IMG/VR virus record: IMGVR_UViG_3300027969_000465
Coordinates: 1 to 21,602 of that record
From: a virus
DNA: 21,602 nucleotides
Reading direction: 5' to 3' (one strand)
The notes below the pieces were generated by a model. It was not told the origin of the DNA. It did not search any database and saw nothing but the letters and a program-made list of their open reading frames with translations. Below, piece after piece: positions 2,350 through 19,720 of the stretch; within the stretch, counting starts at the first letter, position 1; each line of letters opens with the position of its first letter. The position numbers and the translations under genes were made by a program.

Positions 2350-2808
2350 TTAAATATTAATGATAACAAAATCGCTTGATTCAAAAGCACTATTAGTGGT
2401 TTTATAATCAATTCTAATTTTTGCCGTATGTTCTAATTGTGATATATTTGAGACGGTAAATTCTCTTTTATCCTCACCATTTATGTATGTTCCTTTACTT
2501 TCTTCTTCCATTGATGCATCGGTTATCTTAACATCAGTCACCAATAACCCCGGCATATAATTTGAAACCGAATCTCTAATCTCCGACTCTATTTCCGCAA
2601 ATGTTGGACCGTCCAATGGTTCAAAGATGTATTCATATAATCTTGTTCCAAAATCAGGTAAAAAATACCTAGTTCCTTTTCGGGTTAATAATAAATGTAT
2701 TAAGTTACTTCTAATCTCCTCATCTTTAGTGTCAGAACAATCTAAATACTTACCAACATACGAATCTTGAAAGGGAAAATTTATCCCATATGTAATTCCA
2801 TTTCCCAT
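2350..2808 (-). CDS. gp25: Baseplate wedge subunit gp25 (GPW/gp25 family)
   Basis: This 152-aa protein carries the GPW/gp25 signature: EIRSNLIHLLLTRKGTRY at about residues 31-48, then FLPDFGTRLYEYIFEPLD at about 49-66. In T4 and in contractile injection systems gp25 sits at the sheath-baseplate junction, nucleates the sheath and contacts gp6 and gp53. Length is close to T4 gp25 (132 aa), with a slightly longer C-terminus. The start at 2808 (ATGGGAAATGG) is the first in-frame ATG after the intergenic hairpin. The sequence TATTTAT lies 5 nt upstream of it and no Shine-Dalgarno sequence is seen. The gene is followed directly by gp6, the usual partner. Its upstream neighbour is not structural: it is the putative metallopeptidase cassette, separated by a terminator. 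Confidence 0.93.
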   Translation of the reverse strand: MGNGITYGINFPFQDSYVGKYLDCSDTKDEEIRSNLIHLLLTRKGTRYFLPDFGTRLYEYIFEPLDGPTFAEIESEIRDSVSNYMPGLLVTDVKITDASMEEESKGTYINGEDKREFTVSNISQLEHTAKIRIDYKTTNSAFESSDFVIINI

Positions 2809-2839
2809 ATCTAATAAATATAATGTTTGGGGGTTTTAT

Positions 2840-2878
2840 ATAAATAAAAAATCCCAACATAAGTCGGGATTATATTTT
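2840..2878 (-). terminator. Rho-independent terminator inside 39-bp direct repeat, copy A
   Basis: On the minus strand the arms AATCCC (2871-2866) and GGGATT (2855-2850) flank a 10-nt loop and are followed by a T-rich run. The site begins at the last stop-codon base of the metallopeptidase gene. The whole 39-bp block is identical to the block at 3793-3831. Confidence 0.85.
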
Positions 2879-3765
2879 TAATTATTCTTATTTTCTTCCG
2901 CAATTTTCATAACAATCCTACCAAGACCTTTTCTAAATCTATTAAGACCATTCTCTAATTTTCCACTTAATTCTTTTTTAAATTTGTCTATTTGTAAATC
3001 GGTAACAGTGTTATATTTTGGTTTCATTTTAAAATAATGATTTAATATACCTAATAATTTAGTATACTCATTTTCACCATTTTCATTATAATAACCATAT
3101 GTTAATTGTTTTAACAAATTTTTTGATAATTTATTTAATAAATCAATTAATGTTGAGTTATTAAAATAATCTTGATAAAAATTATTTTTTTCGTTAAGGT
3201 ATTTGAATAATTTTTTAATTTTTTCGTTCTCACTCCCATCAAGTGTTTTATAATATTTCGCACCTTCAGCATAAGCTTCGTGTAAATGAGCCTTAACTTC
3301 TTCATCATTTAACAAATATAATAAAGTTCCTAATTTATATTTGTTAGAAAAAAGTGTTGGTAATTTCATTGCGGTACTCATAGTAAAATTTGGTAATATA
3401 TTATCAAATTTACCTTTTTTATAAATAAAATCAACACCGTGAAATGCTTCGTGTAAAATTGTCTTATACTGATCATTTGATTTAAATCCAAAAATTAATC
3501 TAGCACCTTCAGGTATTATCACAGATTCTTGCTGATTAAAATATGGGTTTAAACCCCCTCTATCTCTAATAATTATTTCTTCAATATTTAAAATATTTAT
3601 ATTTTCATCAATAAGAATTTCTGACTCATTTTTCAATCTTGGTAGATTTTCAATAATTATTTCAGCCAGTTTTTTTGCATCGTCAGATACTCCTAAATCC
3701 TCATTTATAACTCTTTTAACAATTTTTACTAAATCTGATTCAGATAATCTAATAATTTTTCCCAT
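2878..3765 (-). CDS. Putative HExxH zinc metallopeptidase with N-terminal capsid-targeting-like tag
   Basis: A 295-aa protein that I do not recognise as a named gene. HEAFHGVD at residues 105-112 fits the zinc-protease HExxHxxD pattern. A second motif, EAYAEGAKYY at 163-172, resembles the third-ligand helix of anthrax-lethal-factor-type gluzincins (E-x-x-A-E). The 54-residue spacing is plausible, with E163 the best ligand candidate and E155/E156 alternatives. The N-terminal 22 residues form a basic amphipathic helix (RLSESDLVKIVKRVINE) ending in I-N-E. This resembles T4 capsid-targeting peptides cut by the prohead protease after (I/L)-x-E. The rest is Lys/Asn-rich and helical; no signal peptide or membrane segment is seen. 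Three 60-base lines (3061-3240) count 18% GC by hand, against 32% for three nrdA lines. Identical terminators flank the gene, so it looks like an independently acquired cassette. Peptidase activity and packaging are inferred. Confidence 0.6.
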   Translation of the reverse strand: MGKIIRLSESDLVKIVKRVINEDLGVSDDAKKLAEIIIENLPRLKNESEILIDENINILNIEEIIIRDRGGLNPYFNQQESVIIPEGARLIFGFKSNDQYKTILHEAFHGVDFIYKKGKFDNILPNFTMSTAMKLPTLFSNKYKLGTLLYLLNDEEVKAHLHEAYAEGAKYYKTLDGSENEKIKKLFKYLNEKNNFYQDYFNNSTLIDLLNKLSKNLLKQLTYGYYNENGENEYTKLLGILNHYFKMKPKYNTVTDLQIDKFKKELSGKLENGLNRFRKGLGRIVMKIAEENKNN

Positions 3766-3792
3766 AATTTATTTTTTACTATAAATATATTA

Positions 3793-3831
3793 ATAAATAA
3801 AAAATCCCAACATAAGTCGGGATTATATTTT
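3793..3831 (-). terminator. Rho-independent terminator after nrdA, 39-bp repeat copy B
   Basis: The same 6-bp stem (AATCCC/GGGATT, arms 3824-3819 and 3808-3803), 10-nt loop and T-rich tail as copy A, placed immediately at the nrdA stop codon. Only about 28 nt separate its end from the metallopeptidase ATG. Confidence 0.85.
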
Positions 3832-6259
3832 AGGATCCACATCCAAAACAATCAAACTCTGAATCTTCAGGTTTTGGTGGTAAACCATCGTTAGAATATT
3901 CAACTTTTGGTGGTTCAGGAGTTACCTTTGGTTTCTCAACTCTTGAAGTGTTTATTGCCAAGTGTTTAGCTCCTGTGGATATCGCTTTAGTTCTAACATA
4001 ATAACATAAAGTTTTTAATCCTTTTTCCCAAGAGTGGAAATGTGATGAGGTAATCTTTGATAATGTGGGATTAGCCATATAAATGTTCATAGATTGAGAT
4101 TGATCAATAAATGGTGCTCTATCTGCCGCCATATCAATTAACTCTTTCTGTGATATCTCCCAAATTGTTTTATATTTAGGAATTAAATGCTCAATTCTTT
4201 TAACTTTTTTGTTGTAATGTTTGTCTTCAGGATCCAAATAATTGTTAAAATTAATATTTTGAATTGATCCTTCATTAATGATGATTTCATTTTTTAAATC
4301 TTCTGACCAAACACCCAATTTTTCAAAGTCATTAATTAGGTATTTATTAACAATCATAATCTCACCACCAACAACTCTTCTGTTAAATAATGCGGAATGT
4401 GCGGGTTCAGTCATTTCAAATGAACCAGTAATTTTAGCCGAAGATGCCACAGGCATTTGTGCGGTAAATAACGAGTTACAAACACCAAATTCTTTCACAT
4501 CCTCTTTAAGTTGGTTCCAATCCCAATATCCTGACAACTCACTTTCTTTCAAATCCCACATATCAAATTGGAATATTCCTTGTGACATTGGTGATCCGTC
4601 AAAAAACTTGTATGGTTCGTATTCTCCGTTTTTACAAAGTTTATTACTTTCAAAAATCGCAGCGTAATAGATGGTTTCAAAAATTTGTTTGTTCAAAATT
4701 CTTGCTTCTTCATCGGTAAAAATCAAATCAAGAAGATAGAATACATCCGCCAATCCTTGAGTTCCAATTGCAATTGCTCTTTGTTCTAAACCACCTTTAA
4801 GTCCTTTATCTGTTGAGTAAGTATTAATGTTAACAACTTTATTTAAAGCTCTGACAACTTTTCTTACTTCCGTAAATAACAATTGGAAATCAAACTTATT
4901 GTTTTGAATGAAGTTTTTTAACACCATTGAAGATAATGTGCAAATTGCGGTAGTTTCTTCATCGGTGTATTGATATATCTCATTACATAAATTTGATTGT
5001 TTAATCACACCAATATTTTGATGATTTGTTTTTCGGTTAGCACTATCTTTAGAACATAAATAAGGAACGCCCGTTTCAATCTGTGATTCATAAATTTTAC
5101 CCCAAATATCTTGAGCTTTAACTTTTTTACCAAGTCCTAAAGAAACCGCCTTCTCGTAGTTTTCTTCATACTCATCACCAAACGATTCTTGTAGTGGTTT
5201 AATACCGGCATTTTTAATGTCGTTAGGACAAAACAAATACCAATCACCATTTTCTTTAACGGCTCTCATAAAGTTATCAGGAATCCAAAGTGCGGTAAAT
5301 AAATCACGAGCTCTTAATTCTTCAGCACCTGTATTCTTTTTAATGTCAAGAAGATCTATGATGTCTTTATGCCAAGGTTCCAAATAAATTGCTGCCGATC
5401 CAGGTCGTCTCCCTTGTTGATTAAAGAATCTTAATGATTCGTTAACAATTTTAAGATATTTTAATAGTCCACCCGCATAACCACCTGAACTAGTGATTCT
5501 ACTTTCTTTACTTCGGATGTTAGACATAGATAAACCAATACCCGCCGCATCTGATGAATAGGTTGAGATATCGTTTAATGTGTTCAACAATCCGTTTCGT
5601 GAATCCGAATTATTATAATGTAACACACAAGACGCTAATTGGGGAACTTTAGTTCCTGAATTAATCATAATTGGCGTTGCCGGTGAAATTCTTTGTTCTG
5701 AAAGTGATTTGTAGTAATCTAACGCCTCTTCAAATGTGTTAGTCACCCAAAGAGCGACTCTCATATACATATGTTGTGGTCGTTCAATTACCTCACCCGT
5801 TGGCATCTTTAAAAGATACATTTCTTGTAATGATCTCCAAGCAAAATAATCAAAGTTGTAGTCATTATCGTGATGGATTACCGCATCTATAATTTGTTCA
5901 CCATATAAATCAATAGTTTCAATTAACTTATCGTTAACAACACCGTGATTATTCAATAATTTCATAGTTTGTGAAAAACTATCATTCGTCTCTTTATGGT
6001 ATGATGATATTGCAACTGATGACGCTAATCTTGAGTAATCGTGATGACTACCGGTATATGATGCCGCAATCTCATAAACCAATTTATCAAGTTCTTTTGT
6101 TGTAATTTCTCCTTCAGTAGGTACGGATGTGATAACTTTAATGAATATTTCATCAGAATTAACATTCAAACCTTTTGATGATCGTTTAACACGATTATAA
6201 ATTTTTTGTGGATTAAACGCTGCCGAATCTCCACTTCTTTTAATAATTTTTAATGACAT
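3830..6259 (-). CDS. nrdA: Ribonucleoside-diphosphate reductase class Ia, alpha subunit
   Basis: The 809-aa catalytic subunit that reduces ribonucleoside diphosphates to deoxy forms for phage DNA synthesis. An N-terminal ATP-cone occupies about residues 3-90 (KIIKRSGDSAAFNPQKIYNR). Active-site motifs are intact: SGTKVPQLASCVL with C211, NLCNE with N423, C425 and E427, and AICTLSS with C440. Radical-transfer tyrosines Y753 and Y754 lie in CYYVRTKA. The C-terminal tail ends CFGCGS, supplying the redox pair C804/C807 with two residues between the cysteines, where E. coli NrdA has four. No intein or intron interrupts the gene. It starts 15 nt after nrdB, so the two subunits are made from one message, and it ends directly in a terminator. 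The ATP-cone suggests ATP/dATP allosteric control. Confidence 0.96.
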   Translation of the reverse strand: MSLKIIKRSGDSAAFNPQKIYNRVKRSSKGLNVNSDEIFIKVITSVPTEGEITTKELDKLVYEIAASYTGSHHDYSRLASSVAISSYHKETNDSFSQTMKLLNNHGVVNDKLIETIDLYGEQIIDAVIHHDNDYNFDYFAWRSLQEMYLLKMPTGEVIERPQHMYMRVALWVTNTFEEALDYYKSLSEQRISPATPIMINSGTKVPQLASCVLHYNNSDSRNGLLNTLNDISTYSSDAAGIGLSMSNIRSKESRITSSGGYAGGLLKYLKIVNESLRFFNQQGRRPGSAAIYLEPWHKDIIDLLDIKKNTGAEELRARDLFTALWIPDNFMRAVKENGDWYLFCPNDIKNAGIKPLQESFGDEYEENYEKAVSLGLGKKVKAQDIWGKIYESQIETGVPYLCSKDSANRKTNHQNIGVIKQSNLCNEIYQYTDEETTAICTLSSMVLKNFIQNNKFDFQLLFTEVRKVVRALNKVVNINTYSTDKGLKGGLEQRAIAIGTQGLADVFYLLDLIFTDEEARILNKQIFETIYYAAIFESNKLCKNGEYEPYKFFDGSPMSQGIFQFDMWDLKESELSGYWDWNQLKEDVKEFGVCNSLFTAQMPVASSAKITGSFEMTEPAHSALFNRRVVGGEIMIVNKYLINDFEKLGVWSEDLKNEIIINEGSIQNINFNNYLDPEDKHYNKKVKRIEHLIPKYKTIWEISQKELIDMAADRAPFIDQSQSMNIYMANPTLSKITSSHFHSWEKGLKTLCYYVRTKAISTGAKHLAINTSRVEKPKVTPEPPKVEYSNDGLPPKPEDSEFDCFGCGS

Positions 6260-11212: not shown

Positions 11213-12079
11213 TTAGAACGGTAATTCTTCATCAATCGCCTCATTTACTTGAGGATCAACAACAGGTGCTGGTGTTGATTTAGAACCTCCGATGGAAGTT
11301 TCTGCAACCTCATCATTAGAATAAACAAATCCACCTTTGTCAGAATCCCATCTTGGAGTTTCTCCACGAGAAATCGCTTCAAGATATTCTACAGGTTTTT
11401 TAGAGTAAACATCCTCCCAAGTTAACTCGTCATTAATCCACTCTGACATTGTGTTAGTGTCTTCGTGAAGTGGTGACGGATCATCATACATTACAGTTTG
11501 GATTACGGTATACACAGATCCTGTGTTAGTTTTCGCCTTTGTCAACTCCAAAATCAAATCTCTACCTTTATCGGCATCGGTAACATCACCTTTTGCTTTC
11601 CAAATAGGAATAATTTTGTCAAGAATACCTTCTTGTTTGTAATTGTGTTTAAATCTCCAAAATTTAACACCGTCTTGTTCGTTGTCACGATCAACAACTT
11701 TCACAATATAAAATTTACGAGCTTTGTATTGTTTGGCAATTTCCTTATCGGAATCCTTACCCGTTGACATCAAATCATCGTGAACTTCATTTAATGGTGA
11801 ACGCTCATTGTCGTTTTTACCTGGATCATAAAGTTTAACCCATTTCCCATCAACTTTAATCTCGTGGAACCATACCTCTTTAAAAGGTGAAGAACCATCA
11901 GGTGTTGGTAGGATTCTTAGTCGTTTCTGACCTTGTTTTTCACTGTCTTTAAGAATTGCAGCAAAATATTTTTTCATTCTTTCGTCCGAAGACATTTTTG
12001 AGGTGTTAGAAGAACCACCTTGTTTTGAGTTCTCGTATTGAGCCAAAACTGCATCTAAAACATTGTTTGTTGTCGCCAT
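11213..12079 (-). CDS. gp32: Single-stranded DNA-binding protein, gp32-like
   Basis: A 288-aa protein near the size of T4 gp32 (301 aa). Residues about 30-60 (DERMKKYFAAIL...RLRILPTPDG) and 66-85 (FKEVWFHEIKVDGKWVKLYD) fit the start of the gp32 OB-fold core. FWRFKHNYKQ and the acidic WINDELTWEDVY segment follow. The N-terminal 28 residues, rich in S, T, N and Q, would be the cooperativity arm. The C-terminal tail after about 245 is flexible and acidic and ends EAIDEELPF. Two departures stand out. There is no cysteine at all, so the zinc site of T4 gp32 (H64, C77, C87, C90) is absent. The tail also ends in an acidic-L-P-F tip like bacterial SSB. The gene has its own sigma70-like promoter (12139-12111) and lies between two terminators, which fits a highly expressed unit. 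Confidence 0.88.
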   Translation of the reverse strand: MATTNNVLDAVLAQYENSKQGGSSNTSKMSSDERMKKYFAAILKDSEKQGQKRLRILPTPDGSSPFKEVWFHEIKVDGKWVKLYDPGKNDNERSPLNEVHDDLMSTGKDSDKEIAKQYKARKFYIVKVVDRDNEQDGVKFWRFKHNYKQEGILDKIIPIWKAKGDVTDADKGRDLILELTKAKTNTGSVYTVIQTVMYDDPSPLHEDTNTMSEWINDELTWEDVYSKKPVEYLEAISRGETPRWDSDKGGFVYSNDEVAETSIGGSKSTPAPVVDPQVNEAIDEELPF

Positions 12080-12184: not shown

Positions 12185-12853
12185 TTAAGGCATCATATCT
12201 TCGTCATCGTAAGTATTAAAAGTGTCTTGTATTTGTTTTGGAGAGAAATCCTCAACCTCATCTTTGGTTAAGATATATTCTTCTCTACCTTGTTTTTCAA
12301 ACTGATCTTCTTTGTCTTCAAAATAATCAGATAGTTTTTGATTAAAAGGTCCGGAATCTAAACTTCTTAATTCAAGTTTTTCTTCAGGAGTTTTAGGTCT
12401 AAATTTTTCAATTTTTTGTTCCAATGAATTAACTGCGTTCATTAGGTTATCCATTTCACCCAATCTGTTTTCCAAATTTTCAAGTTGTTTGAATAAGGTG
12501 TCAAAATATTCCTCTTGTTTTGTTTCAATATTTTTTTGTGAATTAACTAAATCAGTAATTTCAAGTTCTTCTTTATCGTCCTCATCTTTACCCACTTCTT
12601 CAACTTCAGGATCTTGAGATACATCAATTGGTTCAGGGGCAGTACCTGCTTCAGGTGCCGGTGGTGGAGGTAAAGCTCCGGGTGCTGGCGGTGTTTCCAT
12701 TCCTGGTTCAGGTGGTAATCCCGCATCAGGTAATGGTGGAAGTGCTGCCGGATCCGGCTCAACGGGAGCCTCTTGTTCCATTATGTAATTATTAATTGAG
12801 TTATATCTATTAATTTCTTCTAATATTTTTTTATCTATTTTCATATTAACCAT
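12185..12853 (-). CDS. Acidic, proline-rich coiled-coil protein with N-terminal tag (unknown)
   Basis: This 222-aa product is not recognised. The first about 26 residues are a charged helix (KIDKKILEEINRYNSINNYI) ending in I-M-E, resembling a prohead-protease-type cut site. Residues 28-80 are a Pro/Ala/Glu linker with runs such as LPPPPAPEAG, followed by an acidic patch at 81-98. A predicted coiled coil covers about 104-152 (heptad-like LENLENRLGEMDNLMNAV). The C-terminal 70 residues are highly charged and end YDDEDMMP. Possible roles are a head core, scaffold or packaged internal protein, or a tail accessory; none can be chosen from sequence. Two starts are possible: ATG 12853 overlaps the upstream stop by 8 nt, and ATG 12844 lies just past it. 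Neither has a Shine-Dalgarno sequence. A strong terminator follows. Confidence 0.8.
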   Translation of the reverse strand: MVNMKIDKKILEEINRYNSINNYIMEQEAPVEPDPAALPPLPDAGLPPEPGMETPPAPGALPPPPAPEAGTAPEPIDVSQDPEVEEVGKDEDDKEELEITDLVNSQKNIETKQEEYFDTLFKQLENLENRLGEMDNLMNAVNSLEQKIEKFRPKTPEEKLELRSLDSGPFNQKLSDYFEDKEDQFEKQGREEYILTKDEVEDFSPKQIQDTFNTYDDEDMMP

Positions 12854-13079
12854 TTAATAATTGTTTTATACCTGTTTTGGTTTCAACTTGAATTTTTTTA
12901 TTTGTGTTCATTGTGTTATCCACTCTCTCAATTAAACCATCTTTCATTCTAAGGGTGTAACAATCTCCAGTGTCTAAATCACAAACTTCTTTATAACCAT
13001 TCCCTTTATCTTTTTCCGTAACTCTTGTGTTTTTACCCAAGTAGTTATCCAAAATTAATTTAGTATTATTCATATCCAT
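12846..13079 (-). CDS. Small 77-aa protein of unknown function
   Basis: A short soluble protein with no recognised family. The centre (YKEVCDLDTGDCYTLRMKDG at about 29-48) contains two cysteines six residues apart and looks like a small beta-hairpin unit. The C-terminus is basic and ends GIKQLLNG. ATG 13079 is followed two codons later by a second ATG at 13073, so the exact start is uncertain. TATTTAT lies 8 nt upstream of the first ATG. The 3' end overlaps the ATG of the 222-aa gene, suggesting coupling of the two. Codon pattern and tight packing support it being a real gene. Confidence 0.65.
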   Translation of the reverse strand: MDMNNTKLILDNYLGKNTRVTEKDKGNGYKEVCDLDTGDCYTLRMKDGLIERVDNTMNTNKKIQVETKTGIKQLLNG

Positions 13080-13180: not shown

Positions 13181-16100
13181 TTACCCACCTTTTTGAAGGA
13201 TAGTATTATATTCGGTGTATGCATCACCAAAAGGTTCTTCTAATTTTTTCTGATCTTGTTCGGTTAAAGTGTCAAATAATTTTTGAGATTCCTTTACCGG
13301 ATAGTTGTTCATATAAAATTTAGAGAACGCCTCACCATATTTAGTTTCGTCAGTCGTATTATTACCCGTTACATAATTTTTTATAACATATAAACTAGGT
13401 CCATATTTTGCAATCATAAAATTTATAAATTGTTCAAAAGATGAAAATACCGCCAAAGGAATGTTTTTACTATTACAATAGTAGTTGTTTTCAAAATATT
13501 TTTTTGAATCTCCATAATTAAAATTTAACGATATTAACCCATAATTGTTACCGTAAGATTTAAAGACATTGGACGGTTTTGTTATTACCGTCATAATACC
13601 ATATATAAATGATCCCAAAATTTTTGAATCGTTACTATTCCTATTTTTACTAACTAATTCATTTATTCTATCCACAACATCTTGTTTGTTGATTGGTTCC
13701 GATGTTAAATTTTCAGCATTTGTAAAATTCTTATAATCGTTATTTAATAACCCAGAACAAGCCTGATTCGCATTAAGAGTTGTATTATTCTCACTAGCAT
13801 TATTTAATTTATTTGCCGTTTGAGATAAATTGTTGACAGATTTTTGAGTATTAATATCTTCATTTTGTTTAATTCTTTCTCGTATATCATTTAGTATTTT
13901 GGTACTGATTGATTGTATAAAACTTTCAATTTTAGGTATACTATAAAAAGGTTGTCTTTGTCCTTCAAAAGTCGTATCAAATCCGTTTTCAGAAATTCTA
14001 TGAGCAACTTTAGTAATCATATATGGTCCACTAAATAATGGAACATTTCTTAAATTAAAATACATCATAGGTTGTATCAAGGCGTTACCCATCATATCAA
14101 TACTACATTTGTAACTTCTATTTTTATAAACATTATATAATGAAACACTTTGAGTGTAACTTCCTCTATTTCTAGACTGATTAGCCATTTGGTTTAAAAC
14201 TTCTAAAGATTCCGTAGTTGGTAATCCCGGGTCTTGAGAAATGTCAAGTTGTTTAAAGATTTGTTGATTTTGTGGTCCAATATCCACATTAAAACCAACA
14301 ACTTTATTTGATGTTGCCCAATCAGTTTTATTTTCTTGACTCTCCACCAATGGATTGTCAGTTGCTCTTCTTAAATCAAAGGCATCATCTCTATATCTAT
14401 AATCAACATTATCGTTAATTGCCAGATGTTCACTTGGTTTATTAGCGTAGAAACAAACAAATTTTGATGTGGTTTCCCTATAATCAACATTTAAATAAGT
14501 CCCAAATAAACTATTCGCAAATTCTAAACTACCTTCAGGTCTTGGTGTGGCATTTTTACTTACATCTCTAATGTTGTAAAAATTTGCAAATGCGGGAATT
14601 ACAAAACTCACAAAATTATTTTGAGTTAGTATTGTGTTTATAGTGTCCAACATTCTATTTGTTGCAAGTGAGCTATCTATTAAAGTTTTTAATTCAAAAA
14701 TATCAACATATATTTGTTGTCCAACATCTCTACTCGCTCTGTCCATTAAAAGAACATCTTCAAATAAGGTTTTGTTTTTAAAATCAGTTCCTGAAATCCA
14801 AGTATCGTTAATACTTTTAAATAAGTCCCACAATTCGTATCTAGTTTGTTCCCCCTCGTAATCGGCTCTAACTTTAGAGTTTGTCTGACTAATATTAACA
14901 TTAGGAAGTTCTTTCCTCAATTTAGTCATTTCTAAATCCAATAAAGTATTAATATATGTGTTACTTTTGTTAATGTAACTGTCCATTAAATTTTTGAATT
15001 TGGTTGAATTGAAATTACTATCTTCCAACTTTTGGGTTGCATATATTTTAATTAATGGTGATAATCTTTTAATTGAGTTATCGGTGAACTCAATGTTCAT
15101 ATCCAAAAAGAAGTCGGTTATATATGAACCATTATCATCATATACTAATTCAGGTATTTCTGAAAAACCAACATATGTTTCCAAAGTTTTCCAAGTTTCA
15201 GGATTTTGTGTTTTAGATTGTAATAAAGTTATTGTCCCACCGGCACTTGGTAAACTATTTGGTGAACCAACATTATACCCTTGGAAACTATACGGATCAA
15301 TTATGATTTGATTTGAATACGAATAGAATAATTTTTTATCAAAATTTGATGGGTTACCATATTTCATAGTAACTTTATATTCCATAAAGGAACCTAACAC
15401 TTGTTGGAAATTTTTAACCTGTGACTCCTGAATTTCATTAATCGTCACCGATCCGTTTACATTATCTTTTGGTTTTGGCACCTTCATTAAAGATCTCATC
15501 AAGGATTGGAAATTATTATTAGTAATTTCATTTGTGGTGTCGGTACCAAGGGTTGGTTTTATATTTGTGTTGTAATTATATACTGAACGACTAAAGTTTA
15601 AAAACTCGTTTTCCATTATATCTAAAATATCTTTTTCAAATGTTGTAAATAATTCACTAATTTTTGAATATTCTGATGTCACCCCACTAATTGAAAACGC
15701 TTGTTGTATTTCCTCATTATTTTTTATATGTTTCAAATAACTATTTGGTAATGGTTTTGATAACTTATCATTGTCAAAATACCCATAATTCGGTGCTTTC
15801 CAAAATAATCTTACTGAACCATTATAAACTGCGGGGTTGTTAACAACTTCTGTCACCAAATCACCATTAGTTTTAAAACATTCGTCTTTAGTTTGATTTA
15901 CCGAAGAACCAAATGATGGCATCGGATATATATTGTTACCATCTGATGTCTCAACAAAACAACTCCAAGATTTTAAATTTAATGATCTATTTGAGTTTCC
16001 TGAATCAAATCCAGGTAAACCGTTTATTGTGGATCCCGCGGCAGATTTTAAATATAATTTTCCATTATTTAAAACTGTTTGTATTTCACTATTTGAGTAT

Positions 16101-19100
16101 GACTGTGCCGGTGGATTGGTAACAAAAAAGTTAATTGCGGTTGTTGCGGTTTGAGGTATGTTTATACCATACACCCCCACACCACCAATAGTTCCACTAG
16201 TTTGTCCTGTAATTGTCGTCCCTAAAGTGATATTTGTTCCCGATAAAATAGCTCCACTAAATAAATCATTCCCACTAACACTAATAACAGTTAATACATT
16301 TCCAGATATTGTTGTAGCACCACTAATTTGTATTTGTGATTCAAATACTCTTCTTCCTTGTAAGAACACATTAAAATCATCAATTAATTTGGGGTAGAAC
16401 CCTGTGTTAATTCTTGTTTGTGAATTTATCCCATTAGTAATTGTATCTTGTAATACAATGTTTTGGGGAACTCCATCAATAACTAATGAATAGGTTTTGG
16501 TAACCGCACTATTTCCCGGATCATAATTGTCCGAATAATTAAAGTCAGTCCAAACATCATCAAGAATATCCACCCCATCTTTAATCCAAGTTTTATATCT
16601 GTTCCAAATAGAACCATACTTCAATATCCAAGCATATGGTATTCTATGAATGCCTCCATATTTTTTAAATGTTGAGATAATATAGTCCAAATCAGATGAA
16701 CTACCATCATTGTCTTCTTTATATTTTTCTCGTAGTGTTGCCAATGGTAAACTATTCAAAAATAAATAAGATGCGGATTTGAACGGGTATAAGTCATTAG
16801 TGTATCTAAAATTAAAAACACCTTTTTGTATTGCATTGATAAAATAGGGGGTATTTAAAATTGAAGTGGTTTGTTCTGAAGTTAATTTATTAGTGTAGTC
16901 AAAATAAGAAAGATTACCTTCAGTGGTATATTGTTCAGTTATTTTTCTTGTTTTATAAAAAGTTTTTAAATCCGATAAATTAATAACTTGTCCAAATGTC
17001 CCACTTTTATTTGATTTATAGTTAAAACTAGTTACAGGTTGTTTATCTTTTGAATTTACAACATCATCATAATTTGTAATACTTTTTATTATCGTATTAT
17101 ATTCTAAAACCTGATTAGTTTTAAATACATCTTCTTTTTTCTGAATACCCTTTCCTCCCGCTAAATAATTATTTACCCAACCTAAATTAGTTATTGGGTA
17201 TGTGTCGGTAAAATCAAAATTTTCAACAATATTTTTATTTCCAAAATAATCTTTAGCCGGAGCATTATCTTTAATTGATATTAACGGTTGTGATTTTTCA
17301 TTGGTTAAGATATCTTGATTATATAACTTGAATGATGTGTTAATATCATTTTTAATATACGAAGTATTAAACTCACCTCTAATATAGTTTTGCCAAGATT
17401 CTCCCGTACCACCATTTGATATGTGTTTTAAAAACGATAAATAAACCCCCGAATTTAAATCATACTCTTTTAATTTTTTAGTTAAAAATGGATTATCATT
17501 ACCTAACGATTGTAACATATTTAATACTTCCGCTTCGGAATAGTATTCTGACATATTATTCAATTTGTTAGAATCCCTACTTAATTTACTGTAAAATGAA
17601 TTAAGTAATAATCGTTCATATATCTCGTAGAAAAATTTAACTTCTTCCACATTCTGATACACTTGATTATTAATTGGGAATTCAATTGCATTAAAACTTA
17701 ATCTATTTGGTTTAAGTAATAGATTGTTAGTGTCTGTTGGGAATTTTGTAGGTACTTTTCTTTCGTAAGTTGCTTTTATAAATTCCTCAACAAATTCCAC
17801 CTCCGGCCATATTTCAGGTTGGTATGCTCTAATTTTAGTCGCAATACTTGTATCCCCAGGATATTTTAATTCATATCTTTCACCTTCTTTTAGATTGTTT
17901 TCAACAATGACTTGAGGCCAAGGATATATCGGTGTTTCGTTAATAGTTAAGTTTTTTAAGTCAACACTACTAGTTGATAACACCGCATCTTTTCTATTAG
18001 CATCATCCCTTAAATCCCAAGCTTTAGTGTGAACCTCATCAAGTAATCTTAAAAACGCTTCACCTTGAGCAAAGAAAACCGCCAAGACATTTCTTATTGT
18101 TGGTGAAAAACCTATACCACCTTCACTAGCACTTTTACTTATATTTAAAACTAAATCTTTAGTAAGTTGTTCTTCTATTGCTTGTTTTTTAGTTTGATAA
18201 TTAGATCTAATTGTTGTTATTTTATCGGTAAAAGATGACTTACCTTTAAAAAAGAATTTTGGTGATGAATCAAACTGCGTTTTTATTTGATTTTGTATTG
18301 CAATTGTTACAGTATTTAATTCTTTACCGGTTCTTTGAGTATAAGTTTTATTTATATCAATTTCGTCTATTGTTGCGTTATAAAAAAAGGTGTTAGTTTT
18401 TTTTTGTAAATCAACAAAAATGTCTACAGGTATACTATTTGGTTTTCCTTCACCAAAAACCGAATTACTGTTTAATAAGTTGTTATTTGATTTAACAATT
18501 TTTGATAATTCTGACAACGCTTCTTGTTGTTTTGGTGGTAATTTATACTCTTCTTTAAATTGATATAATAAATAACCATCTTTTTGACCCGGAAGTGTTT
18601 CTGTAACAAATGGATTTTTTGTGTCTAAATATTTATTAAACCAAGAATCAGTTCCTGAATACACGAGAACTTCACCATCATACTTATCCAACACTTTGGC
18701 GTAATTATCAATACTATTTAACACATCCGTATTAGTTTTTGGGTATTGATCAATTATATTTTTTAAAAAGGTGTTTAAATTTATTTGTAATTCTTGAATT
18801 GTTATTTCAGGGAAATTATCCGATATTAATCCTTTAGATTTATATTCGGCATATAATTCTTTCATTTTAGCATAACCCTTACTAGACCATCCACTAACAA
18901 CTTTATCGTTTTTATTTCCATTTCCTGTTGTTGTTTGTGGTATTGTTTCAATTGCCGATTGGAACATTAGTGGTGTTGACATCATCTCCTGCCAATTAAT
19001 GTAGGCTAAAATACTATATTTGTATGTATACATTTTTAATTGTATTCTAAAATTACCACTACTTGGATCAAAACTAGCGGTAAAGTTTTGTAACATAAGT

Positions 19101-19720
19101 GGTAATCTAACCGCTTTACCTAAATAACCTTTTAATGTTAAATAAAATAACGGATACGGTAGTTGAAAAAATGCTGCGTATGGTGAGTTACCTCCAGCCT
19201 CAAACAATGCTCTACCTTTAACATCTTCCATTGTTATATCTATAACAGGTAAGAAGTCGGTACCGTATGAGACATTTATTTGAGTAATACCCAACATTCC
19301 TGTATCAGTCGCACCCACCACACCATTAGACAATGTTTCTTGTCTAAAAAAATAGTCATTACTTTGATTAGGATTTGTTACTTTATCAATTCTTTGTTGG
19401 TTTATCCCTTTACCTTGTAATGTATCTTGTCCTGTTATTTCATCAGTATATGAAGTATCTAAAAAATTTTTTTCTCCGGGATTCAAAAAATTAATTTTAC
19501 CCACAGATATTGTTCTAATAGTATCATTTAATGGAACTCCGATAGCCAATTTTGTTCTAGGTAATACAGAACATTCCAAATTAGCGTAAAATACTAAATC
19601 TTCTTGATTAATAAGTCGTTCACTAGCCTTTCCGTTTTGATCAACGACTTTATTTGGATCAATTACCGATATGTTTTGGTAATCAAATTCTACTAATATG
19701 TTTTCTCCGTTATCTACCAT
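13181..19720 (-). CDS. Giant baseplate hub-like structural protein (2179 aa)
   Basis: The largest gene in the window. Two segments look hub-like. Residues about 143-240 contain FFQLPYPLFYLTLKGYLGKA and SFDPSSGNFRIQLKMY. Residues about 1843-1930 contain IDMMGNALIQPMMYFNLRN then FSGPYMITKVAHRISENGFD, the pattern of gp27/gpD-type hub barrels. If both are right, the hub fold is split by some 1600 residues. Residues about 1135-1195 form a Gly/Thr/Ser-rich beta module (SGTNITLGTTITGQTSGTIG) unlike its surroundings. The C-terminal about 190 residues (SYGNNYGLISLNFNYG, then VFSSFEQFINFM) could be a peptidoglycan-hydrolase-like domain, but no catalytic residue can be assigned. ATG 19720 overlaps the gp53 stop by 11 nt, so translation is coupled. 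No signal peptide or membrane segment was noticed. The hub role is inferred from motif pattern and from neighbouring gp53. Confidence 0.7.
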   Translation of the reverse strand: MVDNGENILVEFDYQNISVIDPNKVVDQNGKASERLINQEDLVFYANLECSVLPRTKLAIGVPLNDTIRTISVGKINFLNPGEKNFLDTSYTDEITGQDTLQGKGINQQRIDKVTNPNQSNDYFFRQETLSNGVVGATDTGMLGITQINVSYGTDFLPVIDITMEDVKGRALFEAGGNSPYAAFFQLPYPLFYLTLKGYLGKAVRLPLMLQNFTASFDPSSGNFRIQLKMYTYKYSILAYINWQEMMSTPLMFQSAIETIPQTTTGNGNKNDKVVSGWSSKGYAKMKELYAEYKSKGLISDNFPEITIQELQINLNTFLKNIIDQYPKTNTDVLNSIDNYAKVLDKYDGEVLVYSGTDSWFNKYLDTKNPFVTETLPGQKDGYLLYQFKEEYKLPPKQQEALSELSKIVKSNNNLLNSNSVFGEGKPNSIPVDIFVDLQKKTNTFFYNATIDEIDINKTYTQRTGKELNTVTIAIQNQIKTQFDSSPKFFFKGKSSFTDKITTIRSNYQTKKQAIEEQLTKDLVLNISKSASEGGIGFSPTIRNVLAVFFAQGEAFLRLLDEVHTKAWDLRDDANRKDAVLSTSSVDLKNLTINETPIYPWPQVIVENNLKEGERYELKYPGDTSIATKIRAYQPEIWPEVEFVEEFIKATYERKVPTKFPTDTNNLLLKPNRLSFNAIEFPINNQVYQNVEEVKFFYEIYERLLLNSFYSKLSRDSNKLNNMSEYYSEAEVLNMLQSLGNDNPFLTKKLKEYDLNSGVYLSFLKHISNGGTGESWQNYIRGEFNTSYIKNDINTSFKLYNQDILTNEKSQPLISIKDNAPAKDYFGNKNIVENFDFTDTYPITNLGWVNNYLAGGKGIQKKEDVFKTNQVLEYNTIIKSITNYDDVVNSKDKQPVTSFNYKSNKSGTFGQVINLSDLKTFYKTRKITEQYTTEGNLSYFDYTNKLTSEQTTSILNTPYFINAIQKGVFNFRYTNDLYPFKSASYLFLNSLPLATLREKYKEDNDGSSSDLDYIISTFKKYGGIHRIPYAWILKYGSIWNRYKTWIKDGVDILDDVWTDFNYSDNYDPGNSAVTKTYSLVIDGVPQNIVLQDTITNGINSQTRINTGFYPKLIDDFNVFLQGRRVFESQIQISGATTISGNVLTVISVSGNDLFSGAILSGTNITLGTTITGQTSGTIGGVGVYGINIPQTATTAINFFVTNPPAQSYSNSEIQTVLNNGKLYLKSAAGSTINGLPGFDSGNSNRSLNLKSWSCFVETSDGNNIYPMPSFGSSVNQTKDECFKTNGDLVTEVVNNPAVYNGSVRLFWKAPNYGYFDNDKLSKPLPNSYLKHIKNNEEIQQAFSISGVTSEYSKISELFTTFEKDILDIMENEFLNFSRSVYNYNTNIKPTLGTDTTNEITNNNFQSLMRSLMKVPKPKDNVNGSVTINEIQESQVKNFQQVLGSFMEYKVTMKYGNPSNFDKKLFYSYSNQIIIDPYSFQGYNVGSPNSLPSAGGTITLLQSKTQNPETWKTLETYVGFSEIPELVYDDNGSYITDFFLDMNIEFTDNSIKRLSPLIKIYATQKLEDSNFNSTKFKNLMDSYINKSNTYINTLLDLEMTKLRKELPNVNISQTNSKVRADYEGEQTRYELWDLFKSINDTWISGTDFKNKTLFEDVLLMDRASRDVGQQIYVDIFELKTLIDSSLATNRMLDTINTILTQNNFVSFVIPAFANFYNIRDVSKNATPRPEGSLEFANSLFGTYLNVDYRETTSKFVCFYANKPSEHLAINDNVDYRYRDDAFDLRRATDNPLVESQENKTDWATSNKVVGFNVDIGPQNQQIFKQLDISQDPGLPTTESLEVLNQMANQSRNRGSYTQSVSLYNVYKNRSYKCSIDMMGNALIQPMMYFNLRNVPLFSGPYMITKVAHRISENGFDTTFEGQRQPFYSIPKIESFIQSISTKILNDIRERIKQNEDINTQKSVNNLSQTANKLNNASENNTTLNANQACSGLLNNDYKNFTNAENLTSEPINKQDVVDRINELVSKNRNSNDSKILGSFIYGIMTVITKPSNVFKSYGNNYGLISLNFNYGDSKKYFENNYYCNSKNIPLAVFSSFEQFINFMIAKYGPSLYVIKNYVTGNNTTDETKYGEAFSKFYMNNYPVKESQKLFDTLTEQDQKKLEEPFGDAYTEYNTILQKGG

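Follow-up and report, generated by a model that had tools for sequence, protein, structure and literature searches.

Alt of bacteriophage T4 is an ADP-ribosyltransferase that is injected. This enzyme belongs to the prohead core and is processed by gp21, a protease that cleaves after L/I-X-E, and ten residues of the internal protein IPIII are enough for head targeting (accessible text of PMC9026906). The internal proteins of T-even phages are highly diverse and only their capsid-targeting sequence (CTS) is conserved (accessible text of PMC3012670). Head propeptides of SPN3US and phiKZ are cleaved off behind a short x-x-E motif; in SPN3US, two of them have 20 and 24 residues (accessible text of PMC10052503). 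Here we analyzed a stretch of viral DNA of 21,602 nucleotides (nt) (IMG/VR record IMGVR_UViG_3300027969_000465, positions 1 to 21,602; hereafter the window) and, within it, an open reading frame (ORF) for a putative HExxH metallopeptidase that lies between nrdA and gp25 and is referred to below as the candidate ORF. Its N-terminal leader is common to more than 100 otherwise dissimilar phage proteins, which suggests that the protease is loaded into the phage head and injected into the bacterium. With slightly better than even confidence, we read the product as a late-expressed, capsid-targeted, probably injected metallopeptidase that works like the T4 internal proteins.

The leader was found on at least 206 distinct proteins from 119 loci. 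Of these, 195 were complete (40-502 amino acids, aa), and their post-leader parts formed at least 143 cargo clusters, including 117 singletons (blastp E ≤ 1e-4). The scan of the collection with a leader pattern gave at least 120 stretches, so all leader counts are lower bounds. Dropped before the respective counts were the 11 incomplete proteins, 7 of the 143 cluster representatives lacking 60 nt of upstream sequence and one of the 143 with fewer than 60 aa. A strict leader pattern matched at 12 places in the 304-kb record G001, at four in each of two records and at one in each of two others, all on one strand; no match occurred in 12 of the 17 records, and a reversed control pattern matched nowhere. 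Few cargoes had a known family: among 142 scanned against Pfam, PHROGs and NCBIfam, some resembled peptidoglycan hydrolases or endolysins and one a phosphoribosyltransferase. A defence library yielded seven families among 142 cargoes (best E 9e-7), with none matched for the candidate ORF. The leader itself is presumably not recognisable as the T4 CTS.

Conservation of the leader stops sharply at [ILV]-x-E, the motif at which the prohead protease of T4 cuts. Across the 143 representatives, the information content was 1.5-4.2 bits up to position 16, the values for R-L-T-E-S-D-L and the subsequent hydrophobic columns being inflated because the search pattern or regular expression fixed them, with the M-K-K start and the K-R-V-I-x-E end left free. 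It then fell to 1.05 bits at position 17 and 0.61 at position 18, and stayed below 0.6 at positions 19-33. Position 14 was I, V or L in every representative, and position 16 was E in 85% of them. The motif [ILV]xE stood at the fixed position in 121 of the 143, compared with a mean of 1.3% (maximum 3.5%) at 35 downstream control offsets, and lay within positions 14-21 in 142, compared with 7.4% (maximum 9.9%) in downstream windows of the same length. Most of the exceptions to the fixed position (17 of 22) represent a longer leader subtype in which the motif comes four residues later. One leader subtype has an internal V-K-E. The leader of the candidate ORF ends in I-N-E.

Leaders also occur inside proteins. 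A 440-aa protein (L105:9514-10833) carries a second full internal leader, and a 196-aa protein of L092 and L093 (L092:1486-2073) has, by eye, a partial second one; for the three remaining internal matches, a partial leader or the choice of start site seems the likely cause. Downstream, the L092 protein is similar to leader genes that stand separately in L105 and L084, pointing to gene fusion or to a polyprotein cut by the protease. A looser pattern gave 5, 0 and 0 matches in LR756508, immuto and Mel-JY01, the annotated phages that are nearest, vs 2, 1 and 0 for the controls; one match, L274, has its start close to a stop codon, and nothing is claimed from this pattern. The strings RLTESDL, LTESDL, TESDLTRI and SEEQLKKL were not found in the literature searched, which excluded most subscription papers. 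Related literature on capsid targeting, prohead proteases and injected HEXXH metalloproteases consisted, among the matches listed, of papers on T4, giant phages, P1 and N4 and unrelated papers. A further ORF of the window (12185-12853, minus strand) starts MVNMKIDKKILEEINRYNSINNYIMEQEAP and continues as an acidic, proline-rich sequence; it may encode a further protein of the head core or of the leader type, with an I-M-E site.

Residues 105-112 of the candidate ORF (3765..2878) read HEAFHGVD, an HExxHxxD motif. The first-pass annotation, made from the letters of the window, had pointed to this ORF and motif, and H105, E106, H109, D112, E155, E156 and E163 are all found in the translation. Its placement of the gene alone between nrdA and gp25 agrees with the matches of the neighbors to phrog_84 and PF04965. 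The low G+C content that it described is real, the whole ORF having 23.5% vs 33.0% for nrdA and 30.9% for the window; its hand-counted figure of 18% was too low. The remark that the protein has no signal peptide overlooked the leader at residues 1-22, and the promoter-like element and the two exact 39-nt terminator copies around the ORF were likewise missed. Both E156 and E163 align with conserved glutamates in other leader-bearing proteins, namely the E-x-x-A-x-x-x-E of the p281 family and ETYARV/ETYTRV in L181/L266, in an alignment that is itself uncertain. HExxH alone is a short motif, and HExxH with a downstream glutamate is common to many zincins. Of 3,831 six-frame ORFs (stop to stop, 70 aa or longer) in the collected loci, three had the longer pattern [ILVMF]HExxHxx[DE]; this sample is biased because the loci were mostly picked for the leader or gp25. 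All three start leader-like, the start in L224 being judged by eye.

HExxH is conserved in other leader-bearing proteins. L181 (283 aa) and L266 (292 aa) are 58% identical, have the common motif TILHEMGHLIDF and keep both HExxH and the downstream glutamate. The body of L280 (403 aa) is related to these two (z 22 and 23.5 vs shuffles) and its leader is different; related peptidase bodies thus occur with different leaders. The p281 family (L285-L305) comprises 21 loci and 15 distinct proteins, and HExxH plus E-x-x-A-x-x-x-E is invariant in all 14 of its long members. At 17 of the 21 loci the proteins carry another leader type, ending [IL]-x-E-D-[LMR]-G-V; of the remaining four, three have another start and one is cut short. 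The junction INE|DLGVS of the candidate ORF falls at the same place as D-[LMR]-G-V in the p281 family, and none of the remaining leader proteins among the 206 has this DLGVS-junction string. In pairwise comparisons, the body of the candidate ORF gave z 4.2 with p281 (3 of 500 shuffles as good) and z 3.6 with p181 (1 of 500), and hhalign against L181/L266 gave E 4e-4 at a probability of 34%. The body is probably related to the p281 and L181/L266 HExxH proteins. One other contig carries the protein at 100%. No relative of it was found in annotated phages, a search with the ORF-p281 alignment found none in 50 further records, and a search of the genome collection found no relative of the L181 family. 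Another HExxH protein (L224, minus strand, 414 aa; MIHEIQHILDD) has the leader-like start MNILITESQYNRVVLNEQ and no clear relation to the others.

The candidate ORF forms a cassette, probably a mobile one, in the nrdA-gp25 slot, and near-identical phages have an empty site. The ORF is flanked by two exact copies of an intrinsic terminator (Table 1). In the relative L003, the flanks are 96-97% identical and match window positions 9760-3790 and 2878-1. These two matches overlap by 43 nt within L003, which therefore has a single terminator copy and an empty site. The gap between nrdA and gp25 is 72 nt in L003-L010, and the inserted unit is 953 bp, consisting of the promoter-like element, the gene and the terminator. 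Loss of the cassette through recombination between the terminator repeats, instead of gain, is possible. Of 598 gp25 loci found, 80 (L003-L082) were surveyed. A different protein with the same leader type lies directly upstream of gp25 in seven of them (L011, L012, L064, L065, L066, L071 and L078; five distinct proteins), where the upstream gene differs from the nrdA of the window. Two more (L014 and L034) have a protein with another leader-like start there, and the remaining surveyed loci have no leader-type protein at that place. The proteins of L014:2866-3933 and L034:4699-5256 show this second start as IITE(E/Q)EKxxILEM on dissimilar cargo. The leader protein of L064:5162-5932 and L065 contains, by eye, a transglycosylase-like stretch, GRESSFGSGLRYS, and may represent an enzyme cargo; it had no credible Pfam match.

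Table 1. Positions of the candidate ORF, its motifs and the elements that bound it in the window.
Feature	Position	Strand	Basis
Metallopeptidase-candidate ORF, leader plus putative HExxH body	2878..3765	-	295 aa, ATG start at 3765
Leader, residues 1-22, MGKIIRLSESDLVKIVKRVINE; predicted cleavage after E22 (I-N-E)	3700..3765	-	leader comparison; cleavage inferred
HEAFH, residues 105-109, putative zinc site and catalytic glutamate	3439..3453	-	motif; D112 at 3430-3432
EEVKAHLHE, residues 155-163, candidate third metal ligand E156 or E163	3277..3303	-	uncertain alignment
Promoter-like element of the ORF, ATATTTAT	3781..3788	-	first base 23 nt upstream of ATG
Element upstream of gp25, ATATTTAT	2814..2821	-	sequence match
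nrdA, upstream boundary of slot	3830..6259	-	phrog_84, 9e-171
gp25-like baseplate wedge gene, downstream boundary of slot	2350..2808	-	Pfam GPW_gp25 PF04965, 6.6e-12
Terminator hairpin copy 1, after nrdA	3793..3831	-	fold -13.4 kcal/mol, z -3.6
Terminator hairpin copy 2, after ORF	2840..2878	-	identical to copy 1 over 39 nt; fold z -4.7

Among 136 leader genes, 71 had the element ATATTTAT in the 60 nt upstream, vs 1 of 136 on the reverse complement, the background being 1.2-1.7% per 60 nt. It was also found upstream of gp25 in 40 of 41 distinct cases and, for the head-block genes, in the 80 nt upstream of 11 of 26. Among the latter were two of three genes for gp21-type proteases, two of three scaffold candidates and one of three capsid genes. 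The element was absent upstream of nrdA (0/15), nrdB (0/10) and the helicase gene (0/24). Within the window, 4 of 15 genes checked had it: the candidate ORF, gp25, a small ORF (12846-13079) and a replication-block ORF (11213-12079). We read the element as a promoter that would be active with the structural genes.

Head genes were found in related genomes. Peptidase_S77, which represents the gp21-type protease, was detected in three of nine related records (G001, G002 and G018; E 3.0e-23 to 1.7e-24), and Gp23 in the same three. The capsid protein of G001 had matches in 2,481 annotated phage records, in no case over 80% of its own length, and most of the rows listed were annotated as major capsid or head proteins. 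The capsid proteins have the sequence ...ASFLINE|ATS at residue 60, a short way ahead of the Pfam match to Gp23, with the bar marking the predicted cut. Other head-block proteins start MKNLNKIISKVIRE|ATSD (KVIRE|ATSD) or MGHKELEKLIRRIVKE|APVD (RRIVKE|APVD), the cuts again being predictions. I/L-x-E sites occur near the N-terminus of head-block proteins in these related genomes. Elsewhere in the window, a minus-strand ORF of 2,179 aa (13181-19720) had weak matches to tail proteins only (phrog_52, 7e-5), and no relative of it turned up among annotated phages.

In the mechanism that we favor, the gene, a mobile cargo cassette carried by a T4-like phage, would be expressed late to give a pre-protein, and the 22-residue leader, acting as a capsid-targeting sequence, would bring this pre-protein to the prohead core. 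The gp21-type prohead protease of the phage would then cut after E22 (I-N-E|D). The mature protein of 273 aa (31.8 kDa) would stay in the head with the DNA, enter the host on infection and, via its HExxH zinc site, hydrolyse a phage protein or a host protein of defence or housekeeping. On a wider scale, uncultivated T4-like phages of a widespread group may rely on one leader, along with a small number of sister leaders, as the plug-in label of an injected arsenal that is large and turns over fast; the metallopeptidase would be one effector in it, with exchange of promoter-gene-terminator cassettes and with leader and body swapped at the protease cut site. Regarding this broader proposal, our confidence falls just short of even.

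Several results weigh against these interpretations. Compared with p266, p280 and p224, the candidate ORF scored close to chance, 31, 121 and 42 of 500 shuffles doing equally well. When the hidden Markov model of the p281 family was run against the ORF and 1,000 shuffles, the ORF ranked 340th of the 949 rows listed, below hundreds of shuffles, and a three-sequence profile likewise failed to separate it from shuffles. AlphaFold gave a mean predicted local distance difference test score (pLDDT) of 40.6 for the ORF alone, too poor to judge a metal site, and an equally unusable 33.0 for the ORF with two other leader-bearing HExxH proteins. The exact 8-mer ATATTTAT was absent from 15 of the 26 head-block genes and from all 41 gp6 genes, which are perhaps operon-internal, and its presence before the replication-block ORF argues against a purely late element. 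Neither Peptidase_S77 nor Gp23 was found in six of the nine related records, which may be fragments. The gp21 of the window phage is unseen because the window, a 21.6-kb fragment, shows no head gene. Searching annotated phages with the leader alone found none, short queries having low power. Finally, the cargoes that resemble peptidoglycan hydrolases could fit tail or lysis roles.

The last observation bears on where the leader would send its cargo. If the leader were a tag for another part of the virion, such as the tail tube, baseplate, neck or capsid exterior, the peptidase would be a structural or entry enzyme instead of an injected effector. The position of the slot next to gp25 fits this explanation, as do the endolysin and peptidoglycan-binding families among the cargoes; however, the leader ends in the motif of the T4 head protease, similar I/L-x-E N-termini occur on head-block proteins, and the diversity of the cargo suits internal proteins more than conserved tail parts, so we consider it unlikely. 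Slightly less likely still, the leader might act in the infected cell as a regulatory or stability tag, for example a degron or a helix that binds a host or phage partner, and the products would be cytoplasmic and not packaged. In favor of this, ATATTTAT also precedes one replication-block ORF, and AT-rich orphan genes are common as host-takeover genes. A cytoplasmic tag would nevertheless leave the sharp end of conservation at [ILV]xE to be accounted for, together with the sharing of ATATTTAT by gp25 and head-block genes, but not by nrdA, nrdB or the helicase gene, and the second full leader inside the L105 protein.

Packaged cargo need not be an active protease: the HExxH body could be a binding protein or an inhibitor. 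The body is highly divergent, has no detectable catalytic family and leaves the third ligand ambiguous, but HExxH and E-x-x-A-x-x-x-E are invariant in the long p281-family members, and HExxH with a downstream glutamate is kept in L181/L266, proteins to which the candidate ORF is probably related. We therefore regard an inactive body as rather unlikely, although more plausible than either of the two other tag readings. A different question is the family. The first-pass annotation had called the protein a putative zinc metallopeptidase of the anthrax-lethal-factor type, carried as phage cargo. The catalytic domain of lethal factor (ATLF, PF07737) is alike in having HExxH and a downstream glutamate helix, and the case for it was a likeness of motif, HExxHxxD followed by a helix with E-A-Y-A-E; there is no detectable sequence relationship. 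No ATLF row and no PDB sequence match appeared at E ≤ 10, and the sole row listed for the ORF in Pfam, PHROGs and NCBIfam was TetR_C_8 (E 0.32, below cut-off). Queried with L181 or the p281 pair, the PDB sequences gave weak unrelated rows only (best E 0.18 and 0.013, respectively), and the leader-bearing HExxH proteins L181, L266, L282 and L284 have no Pfam family above cut-off. The lethal-factor identity was rejected since Pfam, PHROGs, NCBIfam and PDB sequences gave nothing credible, and we consider it highly improbable. The notion of cargo, by contrast, gains a stronger sense than first given to it, via the modular, capsid-targeting-like leader.

Compared with the described systems, the leader proteins resemble T4 IPI, IPII and IPIII, which have a short conserved N-terminal propeptide that ends at I/L-x-E and diverse cargo. 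They differ from them in having many more cargo types and, among these, a putative metallopeptidase. The proposed product of the candidate ORF would be like T4 Alt in being a prohead-core enzyme processed by gp21, and unlike it in enzyme class. PhiKZ and SPN3US belong to another phage group, and their cleavage motif is A-x-E or S/A-x-E (accessible text of PMC10052503 and PMC9026906).

Phage proteins injected with the DNA can decide the early fate of host defences, yet in uncultivated phages there is no way to tell which ones they are. If the reading proposed here is true, the leader would be a label readable from sequence, and injected proteins could be listed from sequence alone, with at least 143 cargo clusters in the present collection. 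As a weapon used early, a packaged metallopeptidase would, in that case, be unusual. The leader may also function as a loading tag in those T4-like phages that infect hosts other than enteric bacteria.
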